Shown here piece by piece: positions 323 to 10,615 of a stretch of 15,431 nt of DNA; position 1 is the first letter of the stretch, and every line of letters starts with the position of its first letter. Source of the DNA: Candidatus Poribacteria bacterium (GTDB lineage Bacteria; Abyssobacteria; SURF-5); assembly GCA_016215705.1 (NCBI GenBank), contig JACRIR010000101.1, forward strand, positions 1 to 15,431, read 5' to 3'. The position numbers and the translations under genes are program-made. A model generated the notes under the pieces. The model ran no database searches and was not told the DNA's origin. It was given only the letters and a program-made list of their open reading frames with translations.

Positions 323-343
323 GACACGATGCGACATCGTGTC
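323..343. repeat. Interspersed palindrome, copy A (short)
   Basis: GACACGATG at 323-331 and CATCGTGTC at 335-343 form a 9-bp perfect stem with a 3-base loop, preceded by CGGG. It shares the GGGGACAC/GTGTCCCC core with longer copies at 1828, 3303, 6378, 8307 and 10283. It lacks the outer AATT/AATT arms. It lies beyond the 3' end of regulator 1 (minus strand) and might contribute to transcript ending, although no T-run follows on that strand. Confidence 0.8.
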
Positions 344-436
344 TACTATTTTCTCACACATGCCCGAATTAATTCGGCCCCACAACTGGCGATGCGGCTC
401 CCCAAATATTTGACCGGCCCTGCGACGTGGTCCTGC

Positions 437-1780
437 TCATGTAATGGTGATACCCAGCCGCTTCATCTTGCGCCAAAGGGTGGTCTTGTGAATACCAAGC
501 TCTCTGGCAGTCACGGACCGGTTCCCGTCGTGCCGACGCAAAGCTTCTTTGATAAAGTGAGCTTCAATCTCCTGTATATTCGCCAAACTGGAAGTCTGCG
601 CCATTTTGCTGGTTTCCGGCCTCATATTCTGAGGCAAATGTTCCGGCATGATCAGGCCGTTCCGGCACAAGACGAAGGCGTGCTCGATGATATTCTCGAG
701 TTCGCGAACGTTGCCCGGGAAACTATGATTCATGAGCGCGGCCAACACCTCAGGCGACACGCTGCTGATGTCCTTCCCGCGAAGCCGGTTGAACCGCGCT
801 ATCAGACGCTCGACGAGCAACGGAACGTCGTCCATTCGCTCGCGTAAAGGCGGAATGGCAAGTTTGACCACGTTGATTCGATAATAGAGGTCCTGCCTGA
901 ACTGCCCCTCGTCAACGAGTTTCGACAAATCCTTGTTCGTTGCGGCGACAACGCGCACGTCGGCTTGCACCGGCTCCGTCGCTCCCAACGGCTCGTATGT
1001 TCTGTCCTGCAGAACCCTGAGCAATCGCACTTGCAGCGCAGGGGAGACGTCGCCGATCTCGTCGAGGAATATGGTCCCACCTTTGGCCAAAGCGAAACGT
1101 CCCGGCTTGTCCTTCTTCGCGTCGGTGAAGGCGCCCGCCTTGTACCCGAAGAGTTCCGATTCCAGTAAAGTGTCGGGCAGGGCTCCGCAGTTCACCGTCA
1201 CCAGTGGTCTTTTCCGGCGGAGACTTAGATTGTGGATTGCCCTCGCGAACAGCTCTTTGCCGGTTCCGCTCTCTCCTTCGATGAGAACCGTGCTCTCGCT
1301 CTCGGCGACTTCGGGCAGGATATCGAAAAGAAGCTGCATCTTGTGGTTCTTGCTGATTATATCGCCGAAGGTGAATTTGCGCGTGAGTTCCTTGCGGAGG
1401 TCCTCGACGACGCTCAAATCGCGGAAGGTCTCGACTCCTCCGATGGCGGCGCCATGTTTGTCCTTCAATATAGCCGTGGAAATGCTTATTGGAACCTTGT
1501 TGCCTTCTGCGTCTATGATAAAGACGGCTTTACCGATGACGGGACGGCCGGTCTCGAGCGTGCGTTTGAGCGCACAGTCGTTCTCGCAAATGCTCGCCTT
1601 GAACACGTCACAGCAGCGACTTCCAACTGCTTCGTTCCGGGTTATACCGGTTATGTCCTCGGCGGCGCGATTAAAGGATGTGATCCGCCACTCACTGTCC
1701 ACCGTGAAAACGCCGTCGGCAATGCTGTCGAGGATTGTATCGCGCTCACTCTCGATACCTTGCTTGCTTCTACTTATCAT
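437..1780 (-). CDS. Sigma54-dependent activator with PAS sensor domain (regulator 1)
   Basis: This 447-aa protein has the layout of an NtrC-family enhancer-binding protein without a receiver domain. A PAS domain (about 10-125) carries cysteines 56, 57, 65 and 69. An AAA+ domain (about 140-375) has Walker A GESGTGKE at 169-176, a GAFTGA-loop variant reading GAFTDA at 216-221, Walker B GGTIFLDEIG at 234-243 and arginine-finger region residues such as R295 and R301. A Fis-type helix-turn-helix ends it (about 418-443, TARELGIHKTTLWRKM). Family knowledge says such proteins bind upstream sites and hydrolyse ATP to open RNA polymerase-sigma54 promoters. Domain order and context resemble the activator encoded in the Desulfovibrio ORP locus. 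It is colinear with regulator 2 at 6948 up to about residue 380. It follows the DUF134 gene on the same strand with a 108-bp gap holding a palindrome, so it is probably co-transcribed. The ribosome binding site (AAAGAGA) is weak. Confidence 0.93.
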   Translation of the reverse strand: MISRSKQGIESERDTILDSIADGVFTVDSEWRITSFNRAAEDITGITRNEAVGSRCCDVFKASICENDCALKRTLETGRPVIGKAVFIIDAEGNKVPISISTAILKDKHGAAIGGVETFRDLSVVEDLRKELTRKFTFGDIISKNHKMQLLFDILPEVAESESTVLIEGESGTGKELFARAIHNLSLRRKRPLVTVNCGALPDTLLESELFGYKAGAFTDAKKDKPGRFALAKGGTIFLDEIGDVSPALQVRLLRVLQDRTYEPLGATEPVQADVRVVAATNKDLSKLVDEGQFRQDLYYRINVVKLAIPPLRERMDDVPLLVERLIARFNRLRGKDISSVSPEVLAALMNHSFPGNVRELENIIEHAFVLCRNGLIMPEHLPQNMRPETSKMAQTSSLANIQEIEAHFIKEALRRHDGNRSVTARELGIHKTTLWRKMKRLGITIT

Positions 1781-1888: not shown

Positions 1889-2209
1889 TCAACTACGCCC
1901 CGCCGTGACCGGACGCTCGACCACCCGATAATTGCCCCCATTGATGCGAAGGGCCTTGCCACTGACAAGCGCCGTGGCTACCTTCTGATGGGCTCGAGCC
2001 AGAATTCGCGTGAAAGTCGGCCGTGACACTCCCATCTTCTCGGCTGCCTCGCTGTGCCGGAGGTCTTCGATATCCGCCCACCGAAGCGCCTCGAATTCGT
2101 CCACCGTCAGCGAGACCTTATCGAGCCTGGTCATGGGTATTCCCGCTGGCTTGAAGAAAATCACACGAGGCATCGCGGAGATGTATCGGCATTTCCTGGG
2201 CCTTGGCAT
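1889..2209 (-). CDS. DUF134 (UPF0251) DNA-binding protein
   Basis: This 106-aa protein opens with MPRPRKCRYI and contains TVDEFEALRWADIEDLRHSE, then a helix-turn-helix at about 49-75 (AAEKMGVSRPTFTRILARAH). This is the usual shape and length of the DUF134/UPF0251 family, small predicted DNA-binding proteins often found beside NifX-like and MinD-type ferredoxin ATPase genes. The start at 2209 was chosen over an in-frame ATG at 2278 because AAAGGAG lies six bases upstream, the family N-terminus begins here, and the 2278 start would lie at the -35 box of the promoter. It is divergent from the NifX operon and upstream of regulator 1. A repressor or co-regulator role, possibly acting on the palindrome at 2236-2251, is inference; no ligand can be read from the sequence. 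Confidence 0.9.
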   Translation of the reverse strand: MPRPRKCRYISAMPRVIFFKPAGIPMTRLDKVSLTVDEFEALRWADIEDLRHSEAAEKMGVSRPTFTRILARAHQKVATALVSGKALRINGGNYRVVERPVTAGRS

Positions 2210-2235
2210 GAGGTACTCCTTTCGGGCAGTCACAT

Positions 2236-2299: not shown

Positions 2300-2315
2300 A
2301 TTGCGGTTCTGCAAC
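2300..2315. promoter_or_regulatory. Upstream activator site, distal (sigma54 unit 1)
   Basis: ATTGC-GGTTCT-GCAAC is an inverted repeat with TTGC/GCAA arms and a 6-base spacer, centred at 2307.5. A second site of the same form is centred exactly 34 bp downstream at 2341.5, and the pair recurs at 6721-6770. It is probably bound by one of the two Fis-type HTH activators in this window. Confidence 0.7.
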
Positions 2316-2332
2316 CATTCGGGCTCGAATGA

Positions 2333-2350
2333 GATTGCAGGTCGGCAATC
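2333..2350. promoter_or_regulatory. Upstream activator site, proximal (sigma54 unit 1)
   Basis: GATTGC-AGGTCG-GCAATC is a perfect 6-bp inverted repeat with a 6-base spacer, centred at 2341.5. It is 109 bp upstream of the -24 GG of the sigma54 promoter at 2449, a typical distance for enhancer binding with DNA looping. Confidence 0.72.
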
Positions 2351-2448
2351 CTCTCAGCGGAAAGACGTAATCCATTCTTATATCAAAAGTCTCGCATTTC
2401 ATGGTGTTTCGGTCAGATACAGTGCTTCTTGAGGGCATTCGAATTACA

Positions 2449-2464
2449 TGGCACGTTTGATGCC
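2449..2464 (+). promoter_or_regulatory. Sigma54 promoter of the NifX/ATPase cluster
   Basis: TGGCACGTTTGATGCC has the invariant GG (2450-2451) and GC (2462-2463) separated by ten bases, with a full TGGCACG -24 element. The expected start is near 2475, giving a leader of about 27 bases and a Shine-Dalgarno GGAGG at 2489-2493 before the ATG at 2502. Confidence 0.85.
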
Positions 2465-2501
2465 CTATCTAATGTCTCGGTGGTGCTCGGAGGCGCAAGA
2501 A

Positions 2502-2915
2502 ATGAAGGTCGCAATTCCGGTGTGGCAGTCAAGGGTTTCACCCGTATTCGACACCGCAGGGCGATTGCTCGTTGTGGAGGTCGAGAACGGAGCCGCGCGT
2601 TCTTCAGCCCAGGAATCACTTGTCGAATGTTCATTCTCGGGACGCATCAGCCGATTGACCGAACTCGGCGTGGATGTTCTGCTGTGCGGCGCGATCTCGA
2701 CTCCAATGGCGCAGGCCATAGAGGCTTCAGGGGTCAGGATCGTTCCGTGGATTTCGGGCGAGGTGAGTGAAGTACTGAGGGAATTTGTGGTTCGAAAGTC
2801 GATGGGAAAACGGTTCGTCATGCCCGGCCGCCAACGATGCCGCCGCCGGGCGGGTAACCGCCGCAAGAGCGGAACAGAATCCGTCTTGCCAAAACATCCG
2901 GAGGAAACGCTATGA
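2502..2915 (+). CDS. NifX/NifB-type dinitrogenase cofactor-domain protein 1
   Basis: This 137-aa protein begins MKVAIPVWQSRVSPVFDTAG, the opening beta strand and loop of the Nitro_FeMo-Co (NifX/NifB C-terminal) family. It continues with LGVDVLLCGAIS and a basic C-terminal tail (MPGRQRCRRRAGNRRK). Domain members bind iron-molybdenum or iron-sulfur clusters; outside nitrogen fixers their roles are mostly unknown, and nothing here indicates nitrogenase. The start at 2502 is supported by GGAGG eight bases upstream and by the promoter at 2449, which lies inside the longer alternative reading from 2448. The gene ends in an ATGA overlap with the next gene (2912-2915), so the two are translationally coupled. 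The basic, Arg-rich tail might bind nucleic acid or acidic partners; this is a guess. Confidence 0.88.
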   Translation: MKVAIPVWQSRVSPVFDTAGRLLVVEVENGAARSSAQESLVECSFSGRISRLTELGVDVLLCGAISTPMAQAIEASGVRIVPWISGEVSEVLREFVVRKSMGKRFVMPGRQRCRRRAGNRRKSGTESVLPKHPEETL

Positions 2916-3274
2916 AGATCGCCATAACCGCGCAAGACAACGAATTGCACAGCGCCGTGGACCCTCGGTTCGGACGCGCAAGATGGTTTATTGTAATTGA
3001 CATCGACACGGGTGATTTTGTCCCTGTAAGCAATGCCAAGAACCTCGATACGGGGCAGGGCGCGGGAATCCAGGCGGGCCGCCATGCGGCGGAGTTGGGA
3101 GTAAAAGCGGTTGTCACGGGGAATGTGGGTCCGAAAGCATTCAGAATCCTCAAGGCTGCCGGAATTGATGTGCATATCGGAGCAAAAGGTACAGTCGAGG
3201 AGGCGACGTGTCAGTTCAAAGCAGGCGTCCTCGGGTTGGCCAAGCAGGCAAATGTCGAAGGGCACTGGGCATGA
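2912..3274 (+). CDS. NifX/NifB-type dinitrogenase cofactor-domain protein 2
   Basis: This 120-aa protein is a standard single-domain member: MKIAITAQDNELHSAVDPRFGRARWFIV, then LGVKAVVTGNVGPKAFRILKAAGI and a short acidic or aromatic end. It is related to the well-known MTH1175-like group. A [Mo-Cu] or [Fe-S] ligand has been reported for some relatives, but no binding residue is certain here; C199-type tails are absent and the only cysteine lies near residue 100 (EATCQF). It overlaps the preceding gene by 4 bases (ATGA), uses GGAGG at 2900-2904 inside that gene, and is followed by a palindrome. It likely belongs to the sigma54 transcript from 2449. Confidence 0.9.
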   Translation: MKIAITAQDNELHSAVDPRFGRARWFIVIDIDTGDFVPVSNAKNLDTGQGAGIQAGRHAAELGVKAVVTGNVGPKAFRILKAAGIDVHIGAKGTVEEATCQFKAGVLGLAKQANVEGHWA

Positions 3275-3302
3275 AGAGAGGGGAAAGGAACAAGGCGAAA
3301 GC

Positions 3303-3351
3303 TCCCTTAATTCGGTGACATGATGCCTCATCGTGTCCCCGAATTAAGGGA
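3303..3351. repeat. Interspersed palindrome, copy C
   Basis: The outer arms CCCTTAATTCGG (3304-3315) and CCGAATTAAGGG (3339-3350) match perfectly. The inner part is imperfect (TGACATGATG against CATCGTGTCC with mismatches). It sits 29 bases after the second NifX-like gene and may act as a transcript boundary or processing hairpin within the cluster. Confidence 0.88.
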
Positions 3352-3359
3352 ACAATGGT

Positions 3360-3402
3360 AAGGTTCTTTGCGGTTTTAACCGTGAACCATAAACCCTGAA
3401 CC
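3360..3402. repeat. Duplicated leader segment, copy 1
   Basis: AAGGTTCTTTGCG at 3360-3372, followed by a TTTTAACC..GAACCATAAACC..GAACC run, recurs at 5688-5736. In both places it follows the right arm of the GTGTCCCCGAATTAA palindrome and precedes a gene start (3429 and 5762). It looks like a repeat cassette or a duplicated intergenic region; a regulatory role is not established. Confidence 0.75.
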
Positions 3403-3428
3403 TATTTTCTTACGAGGAGGATAAAGAA

Positions 3429-3674
3429 ATGCCGAGAGGAGATGGAACGGGCCCAATGGGCCAGGGTCAAGGAGCGGGAAAGGGAATGGGTCAAGGGCGC
3501 GGGAAACGCGGGGGAGGCGGAGGAGGCCAGGCAGGTGGTGGCCTTGGTTTCGGTCCCGGCGGCGCCTGCGTGTGTCTGAATTGCGGGAACTCTGTTGCGC
3601 ATGAGCAGGGCGTGCCGTGCAGCCAGGCGAATTACCCCAAGTGCGGGGCGCCAATGAGCAGACAGAGGTCTTAG
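3429..3674 (+). CDS. Gly-rich N-terminus plus small zinc-ribbon-like protein
   Basis: An 81-aa protein. Residues 1-46 are low-complexity Gly/Gln/Lys/Arg, starting MPRGDGTGPMGQGQGAG like the DUF5320-type proteins found beside NifX and Mrp genes in anaerobes. Residues 47-76 hold cysteines 47, 49, 52, 64 and 72 in a CVCLNCG...GVPC...YPKCGAPM pattern, a rubredoxin or zinc-ribbon knuckle arrangement. From memory, relatives have CPKCGAPM preceded by another Cys; here that position is Tyr69, which would leave the second knuckle short of one ligand. A strong Shine-Dalgarno (GAGGAGG) lies ten bases before the ATG. The stop abuts the ATG of the next gene, implying tight coupling to the ATPase. The function is unknown; metal or cluster binding in the ATPase assembly is the likeliest role. 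Confidence 0.82.
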   Translation: MPRGDGTGPMGQGQGAGKGMGQGRGKRGGGGGGQAGGGLGFGPGGACVCLNCGNSVAHEQGVPCSQANYPKCGAPMSRQRS

Positions 3675-4562
3675 ATGTTCGCAGAGCGCAGAAATGGCTC
3701 GTTAAGGATTGCAGTCGCAAGTGGAAAAGGGGGAACCGGAAAGACCGCCGTTGCGACAAATCTTGCGGCCACGCTCTCTTCCGAGGGATATAGGGTCGTG
3801 TACGCCGACTGTGACGTCGAGGAGCCCAACGGCCACATTTTCCTGAAGCCGACGATAAGAAGCGTGGAGCGCGTCGGAACGCCGGTTCCCGATGTTGATC
3901 TGTCGCGTTGCAACGGATGCGGCAAATGCGGCGACATCTGTGAATTCAGCGCAATCGTGTGCATGAACGGGAAGGTCATTACGTTTCCCGAACTGTGTCA
4001 CGGTTGCGACGGCTGCATACTCGTGTGTCCGGAGAACGCGATACGCGAAACACAGAGAGAAATCGGTTGTATCGAACGCGGCAGGAGGGACGGGATCGAG
4101 TTCATTCACGGAGTCCTCAGAGTCGGCGAGGCGATGTCGGCCCCTCTCATTCGGGCGGTCAAGCAGAAGCTTTCCGACGAGGACGTGGCGGTGATTGACG
4201 CGCCACCGGGGACCTCGTGCCCTGTCATCGAAACAGTCAGGGACACTGACTTTGTTCTTCTGGTCACGGAGCCGACTCCGTTCGGCCTCAGCGACTTGAG
4301 GCTTGCAGTCGAGATGGTTCGCGCGTTGAATCTCAAGCTTGGTGTGATTATTAACAGGTGCGATATCGGCAACAGTGGAGTAAGAGACTACTGTGCCGAA
4401 CAAGATATTCCTTTGTTGCTCGAGATACCGGATGATCGAGAAATCGCGAGGGCGTATTCTCGCGGGCAAATGGCAGTCGAAGTGGCGCCAAGCCTGAAGG
4501 TCGCATTCGCCGGATTATGGGAGCGCATCGTGACAAGAATATCCTCCCGGAATGACGAATGA
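3675..4562 (+). CDS. MinD/Mrp-type P-loop ATPase with inserted 2x[4Fe-4S] ferredoxin, 1
   Basis: This 295-aa protein starts with a deviant Walker A motif, ASGKGGTGKT at 15-24, and YADCDVEEP follows at 43-51. A bacterial ferredoxin module is inserted at about 76-125: Cys 79/82/85/89 (CNGCGKCGDIC) and Cys 108/111/114/118 (CHGCDGCILVC). VIDAPPGTSC (173-182) and LLVTEPTPFG follow, then NRCD near 227-230 as the base-recognition region. Such proteins are paired ferredoxin-ATPases of the Mrp/NBP35 relatives, found in the Desulfovibrio ORP complex, where they are linked to cell-division positioning and iron-sulfur handling. The pair here is most likely a heterodimer with the product of 4743. The start directly follows the TAG of the zinc-ribbon gene; AGAGGT lies upstream. 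Its substrate or cargo cannot be read from sequence. Confidence 0.92.
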   Translation: MFAERRNGSLRIAVASGKGGTGKTAVATNLAATLSSEGYRVVYADCDVEEPNGHIFLKPTIRSVERVGTPVPDVDLSRCNGCGKCGDICEFSAIVCMNGKVITFPELCHGCDGCILVCPENAIRETQREIGCIERGRRDGIEFIHGVLRVGEAMSAPLIRAVKQKLSDEDVAVIDAPPGTSCPVIETVRDTDFVLLVTEPTPFGLSDLRLAVEMVRALNLKLGVIINRCDIGNSGVRDYCAEQDIPLLLEIPDDREIARAYSRGQMAVEVAPSLKVAFAGLWERIVTRISSRNDE

Positions 4563-4733
4563 TCACCACTGTCCAATACGGCTTCTTCCACCGCAAAGGC
4601 GCAAAGGGCGCAAAGAAGGAATCAACGGTAAGAAGAAGAATAATTGTTCCAGTTATCTTGGACAAAGATCAAGAATGAGGAATAAGCGTCTCCTTTGCGC
4701 TCTTTGCGCCTTTGCGGTGAAAAACAGTGGTGA
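4563..4733. mobile_element. MITE-like element with inverted ends
   Basis: TCACCACTGT at 4563-4572 and ACAGTGGTGA at 4724-4733 are perfect 10-bp inverted ends. Inside them lies a second inverted pair, ACCGCAAAGGCGCAAAG (4590-4606) against CTTTGCGCCTTTGCGGT (4702-4718), and then about 70 unrelated bases. It has no open frame of note. It starts right after the stop of the first ATPase gene and its far end supplies the GAGGT region just before the second ATPase gene. The compact size and symmetric ends suggest a non-autonomous mobile or hairpin repeat; no transposase is in the window. Confidence 0.7.
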
Positions 4734-4742
4734 GGTCTGAAG

Positions 4743-5627
4743 ATGAAACAACTTGTTGTTATCAGCGGAAAAGGCGGGACCGGCAAGACAAGTATTGTGG
4801 CCTGTTTTGCGGCGCTCTCGCAGAACAGAGTGCTTGCCGACTGTGACGTTGACGCTGCCGACCTTCACCTTGTGATGGATGCGCGCGTCCGCCACAGAGA
4901 ACTTTTCCGCAGCGGCAAGAAGGCGAGCATCGTGTCTGAGAAATGCGTCGATTGCGGCGAATGTGAGAGACTTTGCCGACTCGGCGCAGTCATCCGAAAC
5001 GGAGACGCCAAAGGAAAGGATTCCGACAGTCTTCATATTGATCCGATTGTATGCGAGGGCTGCGGCGTATGCTATCATTTCTGTCCCGCCGACGCGATAG
5101 CGTTTGGAGAAACTGTCAGCGGAGAATGGTTCGTCTCGGAGACCCGGTGTGGACCTATGGTACATGCGAGACTCGGGATTGCCCAAGGGAACTCCGGCAA
5201 ACTGGTTTCCGTGGTGAGAAGTCAGGCCCGGGGTTTGGCCCTGAAGCACGGCCTCGATCTGATAATTATAGATGGTCCGCCGGGAATCGGATGTCCCGTG
5301 ATAGCATCGGTCACCGGCACGGACCTCGTGCTGGTTGTCACTGAACCGACCCTCTCCGGCGTTCACGACCTCGAGCGTGTGCGGCAGTTGGCGTCGCATT
5401 TCCGGACAAGAACTGTGGCCTGCATAAACAAGTGCGATCTGAATCCGAAAATGACAGCGCACATCGAAGAGCATTGCGAGGAGACCGGAATGGAAGTCGT
5501 TGGCCGCATTCGATACGATAAATCCGTGACTCTCGCCCAGATCGCGAAAACCAGTGTGGTGGAGTATTCTGATAGCCCGATATCACTGGAAATACGGCAA
5601 ATGTGGGAGCACATCGGGGCGCCATAA
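4743..5627 (+). CDS. MinD/Mrp-type P-loop ATPase with inserted 2x[4Fe-4S] ferredoxin, 2
   Basis: This 294-aa paralogue of the preceding ATPase has SGKGGTGKT at 8-16 and LADCDVDAAD at 31-40. Two cluster motifs follow, at Cys 68/71/74/78 (CVDCGECERLC) and Cys 104/107/110/114 (CEGCGVCYHFC), then IIIDGPPGIGC (174-184), VVTEPTLSG and NKCDLN. The linker before the second cluster is longer than in the first ATPase and carries a Lys/Asp-rich stretch (NGDAKGKDSD). Known pairs of this type are adjacent and probably form heterodimers coupling ATP binding to electron or cluster transfer. The 180-bp gap to the first ATPase gene is almost filled by the MITE-like element, so the natural operon spacing was probably only a few bases. 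GAGGT lies about seven bases before the ATG. Confidence 0.92.
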   Translation: MKQLVVISGKGGTGKTSIVACFAALSQNRVLADCDVDAADLHLVMDARVRHRELFRSGKKASIVSEKCVDCGECERLCRLGAVIRNGDAKGKDSDSLHIDPIVCEGCGVCYHFCPADAIAFGETVSGEWFVSETRCGPMVHARLGIAQGNSGKLVSVVRSQARGLALKHGLDLIIIDGPPGIGCPVIASVTGTDLVLVVTEPTLSGVHDLERVRQLASHFRTRTVACINKCDLNPKMTAHIEEHCEETGMEVVGRIRYDKSVTLAQIAKTSVVEYSDSPISLEIRQMWEHIGAP

Positions 5628-5648
5628 TTCGGAGATCTCGCCCAGGGC

Positions 5649-5674
5649 GGGACCCCATCGTGTCCCCGAATTAA
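5649..5674. repeat. Interspersed palindrome, copy D (degenerate)
   Basis: The right arm CATCGTGTCCCCGAATTAA (5656-5674) is intact but the left arm is nearly lost; only GGGAC (5649-5653) can pair with GTCCC (5662-5666). It follows the second ATPase gene and leads into the duplicated leader segment, as copy C does at 3303. Confidence 0.7.
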
Positions 5675-5687
5675 AGGAAATAATAGC

Positions 5688-5736
5688 AAGGTTCTTTGCG
5701 CTTTAACCATGTACCATGAACCATAAACCATGAACC
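5688..5736. repeat. Duplicated leader segment, copy 2
   Basis: AAGGTTCTTTGCG at 5688-5700, then TTTAACC and a run of short ACCATGAACC/ACCATAAACC units. It parallels 3360-3402 but with one extra unit (GTACCATGAACC). The following Shine-Dalgarno AAGGAGA (5752-5758) belongs to the gene at 5762. Confidence 0.75.
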
Positions 5737-5761
5737 GAATTTCACAGGAAGAAGGAGAAAC

Positions 5762-6124
5762 ATGAGGATTGCAATTCCAGTATCTGGAGGAAAACTATGC
5801 GCTCATTTCGGTCATTGTGAGGAGTTTGCTCTGCTCGATGTGGACGCAGACAAGAAACAAATCACAAAGACGGAGACGGTCGCCGCTCCCGAACATGAGC
5901 CCGGCTTATTGCCCCGCTGGCTCCATGGATTGGGCGCGACTACGGTTATCGCTGGCGGCATGGGAGGGCGGGCTCAGGATATCTTCGCCCAAAATGGGAT
6001 AAAAGTGATCACCGGAGCGCCTTCAGACGAACCCAAAGCCATTGTGATGGCATATCTCGATGATTCGCTCCAGATCGGCAATAATGCTTGCGACCACGGC
6101 AGCGATCACGTTTGCAGTCATTGA
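5762..6124 (+). CDS. NifX/NifB-type protein 3, orange-protein-like, with Cys/His tail
   Basis: This 120-aa protein begins MRIAIPVSGGKLCAHFGHCEEFALLDVD. The CAHFGHCEEF signature is typical of NifX-domain proteins encoded with ferredoxin-ATPases, the neighbourhood of the Desulfovibrio orange protein. LGATTVIAGGMGGRAQDIFAQNGIKV follows. The C-terminus, CDHGSDHVCSH, is rich in Cys and His and could add metal ligands. The first-loop Cys13 and Cys19 with His15 and His18 are additional candidates for metal or cluster binding. The start is supported by AAGGAGA four bases upstream. It sits last in the ATPase group, 134 bp after the second ATPase. The orange-protein link is by family and context; which cluster it binds cannot be told from sequence. 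Confidence 0.9.
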   Translation: MRIAIPVSGGKLCAHFGHCEEFALLDVDADKKQITKTETVAAPEHEPGLLPRWLHGLGATTVIAGGMGGRAQDIFAQNGIKVITGAPSDEPKAIVMAYLDDSLQIGNNACDHGSDHVCSH

Positions 6125-6131
6125 GGGAAGA

Positions 6132-6281
6132 GTGGATTCCCGGCGCGAAAGAGCCACGACTAAACCTGATGGAACCACCGGCCTCACGGACAGAGGCAAA
6201 CCGACAATCTTTTATGGTATTACGCTTGCCGTCGCCGCTGAACTGCTTGGATTGAAGCGATTTTGTCCGCACGGGATGTAG
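6132..6281 (+). CDS. Possible small protein, 49 aa, unrecognised
   Basis: A GTG at 6132, eight bases after the stop of the NifX-like gene and just after GAGGGAAGA, opens a 49-codon frame ending at 6281. The product is basic and polar for its first half, then hydrophobic (IFYGITLAVAAELLGL) and ends KRFCPHGM. I recognise no family. It could be a small membrane-associated protein, a decayed gene end, or chance. The close spacing and the Shine-Dalgarno-like run are the only support. Confidence 0.25.
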   Translation: MDSRRERATTKPDGTTGLTDRGKPTIFYGITLAVAAELLGLKRFCPHGM

Positions 6282-6307
6282 AGAGAGGCGTTCCTTCCCA
6301 CTCCCAA

Positions 6308-6361
6308 GCCGTCCCTATCCTGCAGGCGGAGAATCCCGCAACGCTTGCAGGAAGGGACGGC
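6308..6361. terminator. Strong hairpin after the ATPase cluster
   Basis: GCCGTCCCT-A-TCCTGCA (6308-6324) pairs with TGCAGGA-AGGGACGGC (6346-6361): a 16-bp stem with one bulged base and a 21-base loop. There is no T-run after it, so it would be an atypical terminator or an mRNA-stabilising structure at the 3' end of the NifX-3 transcript. Confidence 0.5.
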
Positions 6362-6377
6362 CGCATGTTAGAGACAG

Positions 6378-6420
6378 GCTGATTCGGAAACACGATGCCA
6401 CATCGTGTCCTCAAATCAGC
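6378..6420. repeat. Interspersed palindrome, copy E
   Basis: GCTGATT at 6378-6384 pairs with AATCAGC at 6414-6420, and ACACGATG at 6390-6397 pairs with CATCGTGT at 6401-6408. The middle of the arms has mismatches, and the flanks differ from the AATTCGGGG form of other copies. It lies 45 bases upstream of the FmdB-like gene. Confidence 0.8.
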
Positions 6421-6465
6421 ACGCGTTTCTCGTGGAAAGACATAGAATAGAAGGAGATCACAAGA

Positions 6466-6699
6466 GTGCCGATATATGAATTCAGTTGTCGAGAATGTGG
6501 ACGTATCAGTGAGGTTTTGATCCGCACGAACTTGAGTGAAGAAACCCCTGCATGTCCTGTGTGCAGCTCGAAGAACCTTGAGCGGCTCATCTCGCTTCCG
6601 AACGTTCCAAAGGAGCAAACAGTCTCAGCGCCGCGATGCGGCCAGGGACACACGTGCTGTGGCAGCACAACCCCCTGTGAAAAACCTCCGTGCTCCTGA
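6466..6699 (+). CDS. FmdB-family zinc-ribbon protein with Cys-rich tail
   Basis: A 77-aa protein starting with GTG, with AAGGAGA nine bases upstream. The N-terminal half is the FmdB/regulatory zinc-ribbon signature: MPIYEFSCRECG, then CPVCSS, giving Cys 8/11 and Cys 30/33 as zinc ligands, followed by LERLISLPN. The rest (50-77) is not part of the usual core and holds five more cysteines (58, 64, 65, 71, 76) plus His62, a possible second metal site. FmdB relatives are named after a putative regulator of formamidase; their molecular role is unresolved. It lies between the ATPase cluster and regulator 2, whose own promoter starts after it, so it may close the cluster's transcription unit. Confidence 0.85.
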   Translation: MPIYEFSCRECGRISEVLIRTNLSEETPACPVCSSKNLERLISLPNVPKEQTVSAPRCGQGHTCCGSTTPCEKPPCS

Positions 6700-6720
6700 G
6701 CGAGTTCCCAACTAAGTAAT

Positions 6721-6736
6721 GTTGCAAATATGCAAC
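6721..6736. promoter_or_regulatory. Upstream activator site, distal (regulator 2 promoter)
   Basis: GTTGC-AAATAT-GCAAC is a perfect inverted repeat with a 6-base spacer, centred at 6728.5. It has the same form as 2300-2315 and 2333-2350. Confidence 0.75.
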
Positions 6737-6754
6737 TGTTGCGCCGCACACGTG

Positions 6755-6770
6755 GTTGCGCTTATGCATC
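6755..6770. promoter_or_regulatory. Upstream activator site, proximal (regulator 2 promoter)
   Basis: GTTGC-GCTTAT-GCATC is a one-mismatch version, centred at 6762.5, exactly 34 bp from the distal site and 111 bp from the -24 GG at 6873. At the first sigma54 unit the same distances are 34 and 109. Confidence 0.65.
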
Positions 6771-6871: not shown

Positions 6872-6887
6872 TGGCACAATCCGTGCA
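6872..6887 (+). promoter_or_regulatory. Sigma54 promoter of regulator 2
   Basis: TGGCACAATCCGTGCA has GG at 6873-6874 and GC at 6885-6886 with ten bases between. The expected start is near 6898. Together with the two activator sites this predicts that regulator 2 is controlled by itself or by regulator 1. The remainder of the 6700-6947 spacer holds no gene that I can support. Confidence 0.85.
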
Positions 6888-6947: not shown

Positions 6948-8294
6948 ATGTCATACAGGTACCATCTTGATCAAAAAGATATTTCAGCGATCATTTTTAA
7001 CAGCATCAGCGAGGGTGTGTTCACGACGGATCACGACTGTCGCATCACTTCTTTCAATCGAGCGGCGGAGAAGATTTCGGGTTTCAGCCGGGAAGAAGCG
7101 ATCGGCAAGTATTGTTTCGATATTTTCCGGACCGACCTTTGCCAGACGCGGTGTGCGCTCAGAAACACGCTGGAGAACGGGAAATCGGTTTCGAACGTTC
7201 GCGTAACGATCATCACTCGTGACGGCCGCAAGGCGCCTATCAGCGTGAGCACAACGCTGTTGCGCGACGAGTCAAAGCAATGTAACGGAGCGGTTGAATT
7301 CTTTCGAGACCTTTCCGAGATTGAGAACCTTCAGGAGAAGGTTTCGAGATTCAACCGTTTCGAGAATCTCGTCAGCAATAATGAGAAGATGCAACATATC
7401 TTCAAATTGCTTCCAGAGATCGCCGAGTCCGAATGCAGCGTGCTGATTCAAGGGCCAAGCGGCTCGGGAAAAGAACTTCTGGCGCAGGCAATCCACAACT
7501 TGAGCCCGCGCAAGCATAATCCGTATATCCGGATCAACTGTGCGGCGCTTCCTGAAACCTTGCTGGAATCAGAGCTTTTCGGTTATGCGAGGGGAGCTTT
7601 CACGGATGCCAAGCGGGACAAACCCGGGATGTTTTTTCTCGCTCAGGGCGGGACACTGCTTCTCGACGAGATCGGAGATATGCCGCTCTCGCTCCAGGTG
7701 AAGCTTCTGAGGGTGCTCAATAACGGCGAATATCAGCCACTGGGTTCGACACGAATGCTGCAAGCCGACGCGCGAATCATCACGTCCTCGAATCGCGACA
7801 TCAAGCAAATGGTTGAGCAGGGCACGTTCCGAGAGGACCTGTATTATCGCGTCAATGTGATTAACATACAGATTCCTCCGCTACGGGAAAGGCTCGAGGA
7901 TTTGCCGCTTCTGATCGAGCATTTTATTCAAAAGTTTCGCGACAAGCGGAAGAAGGACATTCGAGAGGTTTCGGGCGATGTGCTCAGGCTGCTCAGGAAC
8001 TACGATTTCCCCGGCAACGTGAGGGAACTCGAAAACGCGGTCGAACATGCTTTTGTGATATGCAGGGACAACATCATTCAGGTCAATCATTTGCCCGAAC
8101 GACTGCTGGAAGCGGCGCAGTCCGGCGTTATGCCTTCCGCGCCGGCCAACTACGGTTCAAGTTCCGAAGAGTCTATCATCCGGGAGACCCTGGCGAGGCA
8201 TCGTGGGAATCGGCTGGAAACCGCCCAAGAACTCGGCATGCATCGGGCCACGTTGTGGAGGAAGCTGCAAAAATATCATATCGAGCATCCGTAG
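6948..8294 (+). CDS. Sigma54-dependent activator with PAS sensor domain (regulator 2)
   Basis: This 448-aa paralogue of regulator 1 matches it position for position up to about residue 380. The PAS domain (10-125) has Cys 56, 65 and 69 in CFDIF...LCQTRCALRNTL. The AAA+ domain has Walker A GPSGSGKE 169-176, GAFTDA 216-221 and Walker B GGTLLLDEIG 234-243. A Fis-type HTH lies at about 420-443 (TAQELGMHRATLWRKL). The inter-domain segment before the HTH (about 388-410) is the least conserved part. The HTHs of the two regulators are similar enough to recognise related sites. The ATG at 6948 has AGGA only three bases away, but an in-frame stop at 6939 excludes an earlier start. A GGAGGTG at 6901 belongs to the leader and is not used in this frame. 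Expression is predicted to need sigma54. Confidence 0.93.
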   Translation: MSYRYHLDQKDISAIIFNSISEGVFTTDHDCRITSFNRAAEKISGFSREEAIGKYCFDIFRTDLCQTRCALRNTLENGKSVSNVRVTIITRDGRKAPISVSTTLLRDESKQCNGAVEFFRDLSEIENLQEKVSRFNRFENLVSNNEKMQHIFKLLPEIAESECSVLIQGPSGSGKELLAQAIHNLSPRKHNPYIRINCAALPETLLESELFGYARGAFTDAKRDKPGMFFLAQGGTLLLDEIGDMPLSLQVKLLRVLNNGEYQPLGSTRMLQADARIITSSNRDIKQMVEQGTFREDLYYRVNVINIQIPPLRERLEDLPLLIEHFIQKFRDKRKKDIREVSGDVLRLLRNYDFPGNVRELENAVEHAFVICRDNIIQVNHLPERLLEAAQSGVMPSAPANYGSSSEESIIRETLARHRGNRLETAQELGMHRATLWRKLQKYHIEHP

Positions 8295-8306: not shown

Positions 8307-8344
8307 AAATTGGGGACACGATGCGGCATCGTGTCCCCAATTTT
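8307..8344. terminator. Interspersed palindrome, copy F, acting as a likely bidirectional terminator
   Basis: Arms 8307-8324 and 8326-8343 are perfect 18-bp reverse complements (AAATTGGGGACACGATGC around one G). TTTT at 8341-8344 follows on the plus strand, and an AATTTCTT run on the minus strand. It lies 12 bases after the stop of regulator 2, between convergent genes, so it is well placed to end transcription from both sides. Confidence 0.75.
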
Positions 8345-10201: not shown

Positions 10202-10217
10202 GGCAAAAACTGTGCCA
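10202..10217 (-). promoter_or_regulatory. Sigma54 promoter of the DUF1847-Usp unit
   Basis: On the minus strand TGGCACAGTTTTTGCC runs from 10217 to 10202, with GG at 10216-10215, ten bases, and GC at 10204-10203. This is very close to the consensus TGGCACG-N4-TTGCA. Expected start near 10191, giving a leader of about 110 bases to the GTG at 10079. Confidence 0.85.
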
Positions 10218-10282: not shown

Positions 10283-10327
10283 CCCTTAATCGGGGACACC
10301 ATGCAGCATGGTGTCCCCGATTAAGGG
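10283..10327. repeat. Interspersed palindrome, copy G (22-bp perfect arms)
   Basis: Arms 10283-10304 and 10306-10327 are perfect reverse complements around A10305; the inner arm reads GGGGACACCATGC. Compared with copies B and F, the bases inside GGGGACAC differ but always on both arms, keeping pairing. It lies in the divergent spacer upstream of both sigma54 units. Confidence 0.92.
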
Positions 10328-10599: not shown

Positions 10600-10615
10600 T
10601 GGCATAGTTCTTGCC
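10600..10615 (+). promoter_or_regulatory. Sigma54 promoter of the qrc operon
   Basis: TGGCATAGTTCTTGCC has GG at 10601-10602 and GC at 10613-10614, ten bases apart, with TTGCC at -12. Expected start is near 10626, about 55 bases before the GTG at 10681. Confidence 0.82.

Follow-up and report, generated by a model that had tools for sequence, protein, structure and literature searches.

How is the ORP-like gene cluster on a contig of Candidatus Poribacteria bacterium controlled, and which protein reads the paired palindromes that precede two of its promoters? The window, i. e. the whole stretch of 15,431 nucleotides analysed here (contig JACRIR010000101.1 of assembly GCA_016215705.1), encodes three NifX/NafY-type proteins (PF02579), a DUF5320-like protein, two Mrp/NBP35-like ATPases and a zinc-ribbon protein, which together make up an ORP-like cluster bracketed by two PAS-AAA+-Fis activators, regulator 1 (reg1) and regulator 2 (reg2). 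One pair of palindromes lies upstream of the ORP-like operon (orp), the other upstream of reg2. Very probably, these pairs are tandem upstream enhancers bound by regulator 1, a DVU2106-like ORP activator, and shared with regulator 2, which would itself be auto- or cross-regulated.

Site Pairs and Promoter Geometry

The consensus RTTGC-N6-GCAWY is matched exactly at only four places in the window, which form the two pairs (Table 1). In both pairs the site centres are 34.0 bp apart, as a recomputation of the values given in a first-pass annotation of the sequence confirmed, and the proximal centres, previously placed 109 and 111 bp from the -24 GG, lie 108.5 bp (orp) and 110.5 bp (reg2) from its first G. 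The dyads fall within the range expected for σ54 enhancers, roughly 80-200 bp upstream, and a scan with an ad hoc consensus (-24/-12 element TGGCAC-N5-TTGC, maximum score 20.8) ranks the orp and reg2 promoters among the best σ54 promoters of the window. The 18-bp spacers of the two pairs agree at 8 of 18 bases and hence do not differ entirely, as had been stated; the accompanying view that the region was not recently duplicated stands, since nothing suggests such an event. The orp spacer (2316-2333) is itself palindromic (CATTCG-GGCT-CGAATG), and reg2-type promoters carry an additional GTTGC or GCAAC half-site within the spacer (window position 6738, L058, L077, L080).

Pattern searches of the 5,470,412-bp genome, from which all genome-wide statistics were derived, returned no pair at a spacing of 33-35 bp besides the two in the window. 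Because single RTTGC-N6-GCAWY sites (53 and 49 matches on the two strands) are about as frequent as composition predicts, the number of pairs expected by chance in the genome is low, i. e. ~0.001 at exactly 34 bp and ~0.01 at 30-38 bp, and the observed 34-bp pairs exceed expectation about 1000-fold. The phylum comparison was extended to three genomes, one per genus (the window genome, G001 and G002; ~15 Mb). When no more than one core mismatch is allowed at a spacing of 33 or 34 bp, seven pairs are found here, every one of them at an orp or a reg2-type activator promoter; pairs with two mismatches drop to about the control rate. The first-pass annotation had named a similar rate of motif pairs at random genome positions as refuting its interpretation; the search did not refute it, as the pairs are unique and near-perfect pairs occur only at orp and reg2-type promoters. 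Many TTGCGCCGGCGCAA pairs, several of them exactly 34 bases apart, were encountered in the unrelated genome G026 (L034, L047, L051, L055) and were set aside, as they look like a dispersed hairpin repeat and not like enhancers.

Conservation Within and Outside the Phylum

Both sister genera keep the arrangement at both promoters. The orp pair is spaced by 33 bp in G001 and by 34 bp in G002 (107.5 and 111.5 bp from the GG, respectively), and the reg2 pair by 34 bp in G001 and 33 bp in G002 (111.5 and 110.5 bp). A reg2 paralogue of G002 (L080) likewise has a pair at its own promoter (34 bp, distance 107.5). Two more pairs, one at a radical-SAM gene of G001 (L061 9593, minus strand; 32 bp, distance 107.5) and one at an uncharacterised gene of a sister genus (L081 8709, minus strand; 34 bp, distance 145.5), likely mark further targets.

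A profile of both regulators retrieved orthologues with 50-63% identity in Desulfobacterota, Verrucomicrobia, Planctomycetes, Fibrobacterota and Spirochaetes. These external reg1 orthologues adjoin orp genes, usually in the order reg1, nifX1 (same strand) and Mrp genes, with the σ54 promoter in the gap between reg1 and nifX1. A scan of these loci for a strict TTGC-N6-GCAA core gave almost no pairs. The reasons are a variable third base (GTYGC, GTAGC) and the gene order, as the orp genes of most other genomes follow reg1 on its own strand instead of diverging from it. Scanning the reg1-nifX gap with relaxed sites recovered them: the best-scoring GTYGC-N6-GCRAC pair lies at 32-34 bp in 11 of 18 external loci (dinucleotide shuffles: mean 0.9, maximum 4 of 300). 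The procedure was then fixed and applied to two held-out sets of reg1 orthologues from ~400 Desulfobacterota genomes. In the first, 19 of 57 promoters have the pair at 32-34 bp (shuffle mean 4.1, maximum 10), with 27 of 57 at 31-33 bp and none at 34 bp; in the second, 24 of 35 have it at 31-34 bp (shuffle mean 3.4, maximum 8).

The geometry, which had been described as conserved with sites about three helical turns apart, thus recurs at orthologous promoters in the phylum, in other phyla and in both held-out sets. The exact 34 bp holds as the local value in the window; the held-out spacings indicate that the conserved quantity is therefore three helical turns (31-34 bp) and not 34 bp. Judged by this recurrence at matching genes of other phyla, the paired sites are a real and widely kept element, predicted to exert control of a known kind.

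The distance from the proximal site to the GG also follows a pattern, since the values cluster near 73, 84, 96 and 107 bp, in steps of ~11-11.5 bp. In the first held-out set, a period of 11.6 bp fits best (R = 0.73; a jitter null maximised over periods gives p = 0.001). The second set agrees when tested with the period and phase of the earlier sets (V = 0.64, p ~1e-4); neither p-value is corrected for relatedness. Helical phasing is a likely, not a proven, explanation, because the period comes closer to 11-11.5 bp than to 10.5 bp and because inclusion of the window lineage (107.5-111.5) moves the period towards 12.

Motif and Recognition Helix

Which regulator binds is best approached through the recognition helices. 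Among activators with the helix GxHxxTLxRK, 18 of 19 promoters match the GTTGC-N6-GCAAC matrix (z >= 2) and 2 of 19 match GGGC-N9-GCCC. For the Desulfovibrionaceae orthologues with the helix SKDTLRR, the figures are 0/22 and 20/22, respectively; here, too, the GGGC-N9-GCCC palindromes are often ~30-34 bp apart, with a weaker count (9/22; shuffle mean 2.8, maximum 7). GTTTC-N6-GAAAC pairs at about the same spacing accompany a third type of helix, G[DG]RTTLWRK (L323, L341, L352, L354). Since motif and helix co-vary while the geometry stays, the probable binder of the sites is a member of the reg1 family. This supports the earlier proposal that the palindromes are what regulator 1, regulator 2 or both recognise, the motif varying with the helix type among regulator-1 orthologues.

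With moderate confidence, these patterns can be read as a code of spacing and recognition that the σ54 enhancers of one activator family follow in nature: across phyla, the two sites lie three turns apart, the promoter distance shifts by about one turn at a time and each type of recognition helix has its own palindrome. As part of this code, and proposed with no greater assurance, GxHxxTLxRK would specify GTNGC-N6-GCNAC, G[DG]RTTLWRK would specify GTTTC-N6-GAAAC, and SKDTLRR would specify GGGC-N9-GCCC.

Proposed Mechanism and Alternatives

On the basis of the observed site pairs, their spacing, the promoter geometry, its conservation and the covariation of motif and helix, we propose the following course of events. 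Each pair would serve as the tandem upstream enhancer of a σ54 promoter. Regulator 1 is the kind of one-component PAS-AAA+-Fis activator that governs orp operons, and a dimer of it would probably sit on each GTTGC-N6-GCAAC palindrome. A spacing of three turns (31-34 bp) would set the two dimers on roughly one face of the DNA and thereby favour cooperative assembly of the active AAA+ ring, which could then loop across ~110 bp and open the σ54 polymerase. The orp operon would be the ancestral target. Regulator 2, a paralogue with a nearly identical recognition helix, could be under the control of regulator 1, of itself, or of both acting at shared sites; because its helix (HRATLWRKL) differs little and a pair lies at its own promoter, auto- or cross-regulation is likely. 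At orp, regulator 1 alone may suffice in external loci, because most of these have no second activator of this type beside the cluster.

Several observations weigh against this model. The first base of the half-site is G in 13 of 16 reg2-type sites and in 3 of 12 orp sites, which favour A (p = 0.006), so that the pairs may have different readers. An E. coli-type IHF site (WATCARNNNNTTR, up to one mismatch) is absent between enhancer and promoter at both window promoters, although Desulfovibrio vulgaris needs IHF; in this phylum, IHF may recognise a different consensus. A qualifying promoter directly downstream of the activator was missing in 29 of 89 loci of the first held-out set and in 21 of 56 of the second, and some promoters combine one good site with one degenerate half. 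Moreover, part of the data served to draw both site matrices by eye, a bias that the held-out sets lessen and do not remove, and the related genomes are not independent, which makes the p-values too small.

The first of these points leads to a different assignment, according to which two activators read the two pairs through similar, not identical motifs, regulator 1 at orp and regulator 2 at its own gene by autoregulation. Apart from the A-rich orp and G-starting reg2-type half-sites, the slightly different helices (HKTTLWRKM versus HRATLWRKL) and the pair at the promoter of the reg2 paralogue in G002 speak for such a division. However, the first-base difference is small and comes from few related sites, and orp sites of other phyla, where reg1 orthologues would be the readers, often start with G as well. 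We regard two separate readers as a possibility of lesser probability than shared sites.

Far less probable is the binding of the palindromes by another protein, for example as a repressor by the DUF134 protein, whose divergent gene separates reg1 from the orp operon and adjoins the orp pair. DUF134-like genes do occur near some orthologous clusters, but no DUF134-like open reading frame was found at the corresponding places between reg1 and orp in G001 and G002, and none in most external loci, which still keep the sites. Furthermore, the sites occupy enhancer and not repressor positions and follow the helix type of the activator, and DUF134 was accordingly judged an unlikely binder. That the palindromes arose by chance would agree with the composition-predicted frequency of single matches, yet it hardly deserves consideration given the excess of 34-bp pairs, their matching location across other genera and phyla, and their repetition in the held-out sets, by which this explanation was refuted.

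Gene Content of the Window and Further Observations

The gene set of the window, with a one-component PAS-AAA+-Fis activator adjoining NifX-type and Mrp/NBP35 genes, is as expected of an ORP system of the DVU2106 type. Both regulators, which share ~52% identity in an alignment, carry PF00158 and have a GAFTGA-type loop that reads GAFTDA. Three cysteines of the PAS domain (C-x8-C-x3-C; residues 56, 65 and 69 of reg1) are invariant in all seven aligned regulators, which suggests a metal- or redox-sensing input.

Table 1. Genes, predicted enhancer sites and σ54 promoters of the ORP-like locus (promoter scores relative to a maximum of 20.8).
Feature	Position	Strand	Details
Regulator 1 (reg1)	437..1780	-	PAS_9, PF00158 (1.2e-68), PF02954 (1.8e-13; Pfam); PAS, AAA+ σ54-activation domain, Fis-type helix-turn-helix; GAFTDA loop; recognition helix GIHKTTLWRKM
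DUF134 gene	1889-2212	-	Between reg1 and orp promoter; divergent, adjoins orp site pair
Distal orp site (predicted enhancer)	2300..2315	.	ATTGCGGTTCTGCAAC; centre 142.5 bp from -24 GG
Proximal orp site (predicted enhancer)	2334..2349	.	ATTGCAGGTCGGCAAT; centre 108.5 bp from -24 GG
σ54 -24/-12 promoter of ORP-like operon	2449..2464	+	TGGCACGTTTGATGCC; score 19.0; position kept in G001, G002
Two NifX/NafY-type genes	2502-2915, 2912-3274 (2502..3274)	+	Start of operon; PF02579 (5.4e-10, 4.6e-22)
DUF5320-like gene	3429-3674	+	ORP-like operon; gene set of 3429..6124 also found beside reg1 orthologues of other phyla
Two Mrp/NBP35-like ATPases	3675-4562, 4743-5627	+	Ferredoxin (4Fe-4S) inserts
Third NifX-type gene	5762-6124	+	ORP-like operon; remainder of operon spans 3429..6124
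Zinc-ribbon protein	6466..6699	+	PF09723 (2.4e-14); last gene upstream of second enhancer
Distal reg2 site (predicted enhancer)	6721..6736	.	GTTGCAAATATGCAAC; centre 144.5 bp from -24 GG
Proximal reg2 site (predicted enhancer)	6755..6770	.	GTTGCGCTTATGCATC; centre 110.5 bp from -24 GG
σ54 -24/-12 promoter of reg2	6872..6887	+	TGGCACAATCCGTGCA; score 19.3; kept in G001, G002
Regulator 2 (reg2)	6948..8294	+	PAS, AAA+ (PF00158), Fis-type helix-turn-helix; GAFTDA; recognition helix GMHRATLWRKL

Two further strong σ54 promoters of the window are divergent (TGGCACAGTTTTTGCC, 10202-10217, minus strand; TGGCATAGTTCTTGCC, 10600-10615, plus strand) and serve a NifX-like/USP pair and a cytochrome c3/molybdopterin oxidoreductase operon. 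They are kept in both sister genera (L058, L061, L077). The N6 site pair is absent at these third and fourth promoters; between the two, both the window and L058 have a GTTGC-N2-GCAAC palindrome. In addition, an intergenic palindromic repeat, GGGGACAC-N11-GTGTCCCC, occurs at window positions 324-350, 1837-1863, 3306-3350, 5645-5675, 6385-6412, 8312-8338 and 10292-10318, often bordered by CCCTTAATTCG/CGAATTAAGGG. With ~400 matches per strand in the genome and none for the reversed control, it represents a very abundant REP-like family.

Comparison with Known Systems

The closest known counterpart is DVU2106 of D. vulgaris Hildenborough, a single-component activator with GAFTDA that activates two divergent orp operons (orp1 and orp2) from palindromic sites upstream of σ54 promoters and needs IHF as a co-factor (PMC3897727). 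The window resembles this system in having a one-component GAFTDA activator beside an ORP cluster and palindromes upstream of σ54 promoters; IHF sites, in contrast, are not evident at its promoters. The Desulfovibrionaceae relatives differ in their GGGC-N9-GCCC palindrome, their recognition helix and an enhancer that lies nearer the promoter. The recognition sequence is hence a variable and not a defining trait of the ORP activator family. The D. vulgaris orp locus itself, sought via published IHF sequences, was not found among the Desulfovibrionaceae loci compared. The DVU2106 sites were reportedly defined by Fievet in 2011, and priority for the Desulfovibrio form lies there. In a text search of the literature, which did not cover this 2011 paper, several spellings of the present motif gave no paper that prints it; within the literature searched, neither the motif nor its wide occurrence nor the stepped geometry seems to have been described.

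According to published work, MrpORP passes Fe-S clusters to ORP proteins. The present analysis supplies a motif, targets and a geometry for a large and little-studied family of anaerobe activators governing ORP and Fe-S assembly clusters, as well as a helix-to-motif table for predicting the regulons of PAS-type σ54 activators. The natural variation at more than 80 promoters moreover provides a data set on the helical phasing of σ54 enhancers, which is usually studied with few synthetic constructs.

A similar question of shared sites arises in Vibrio fischeri, where two TTGCAWWWTGCAA (TTGCA...TGCAA) sites at one σ54 promoter, that of qrr1, are possibly common to LuxO and SypG (PMC10162802). As may hold for reg1 and reg2, two sites could be used by two activators. 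However, the LuxO half-sites are 5 bases apart (TTGC-N5-GCAA) and those of the window 6, so that the latter do not match the LuxO enhancer motif, and the qrr1 target is unrelated. Tandem activator sites have been described as the minimal σ54 enhancer (PMC4740811), which is the form that the window pairs take on.

In the NtrC enhancer of E. coli glnAp2, a dyad pair lies about three turns apart and ~100-140 bp upstream of a σ54 promoter. The tandem dyads and their geometry are alike in both systems, while the motif, the targets and the regulator differ, since NtrC belongs to a two-component system and the activators of the window are of the PAS one-component type. The proposed mechanism resembles that of NtrC and belongs to a known kind, with a motif of its own.

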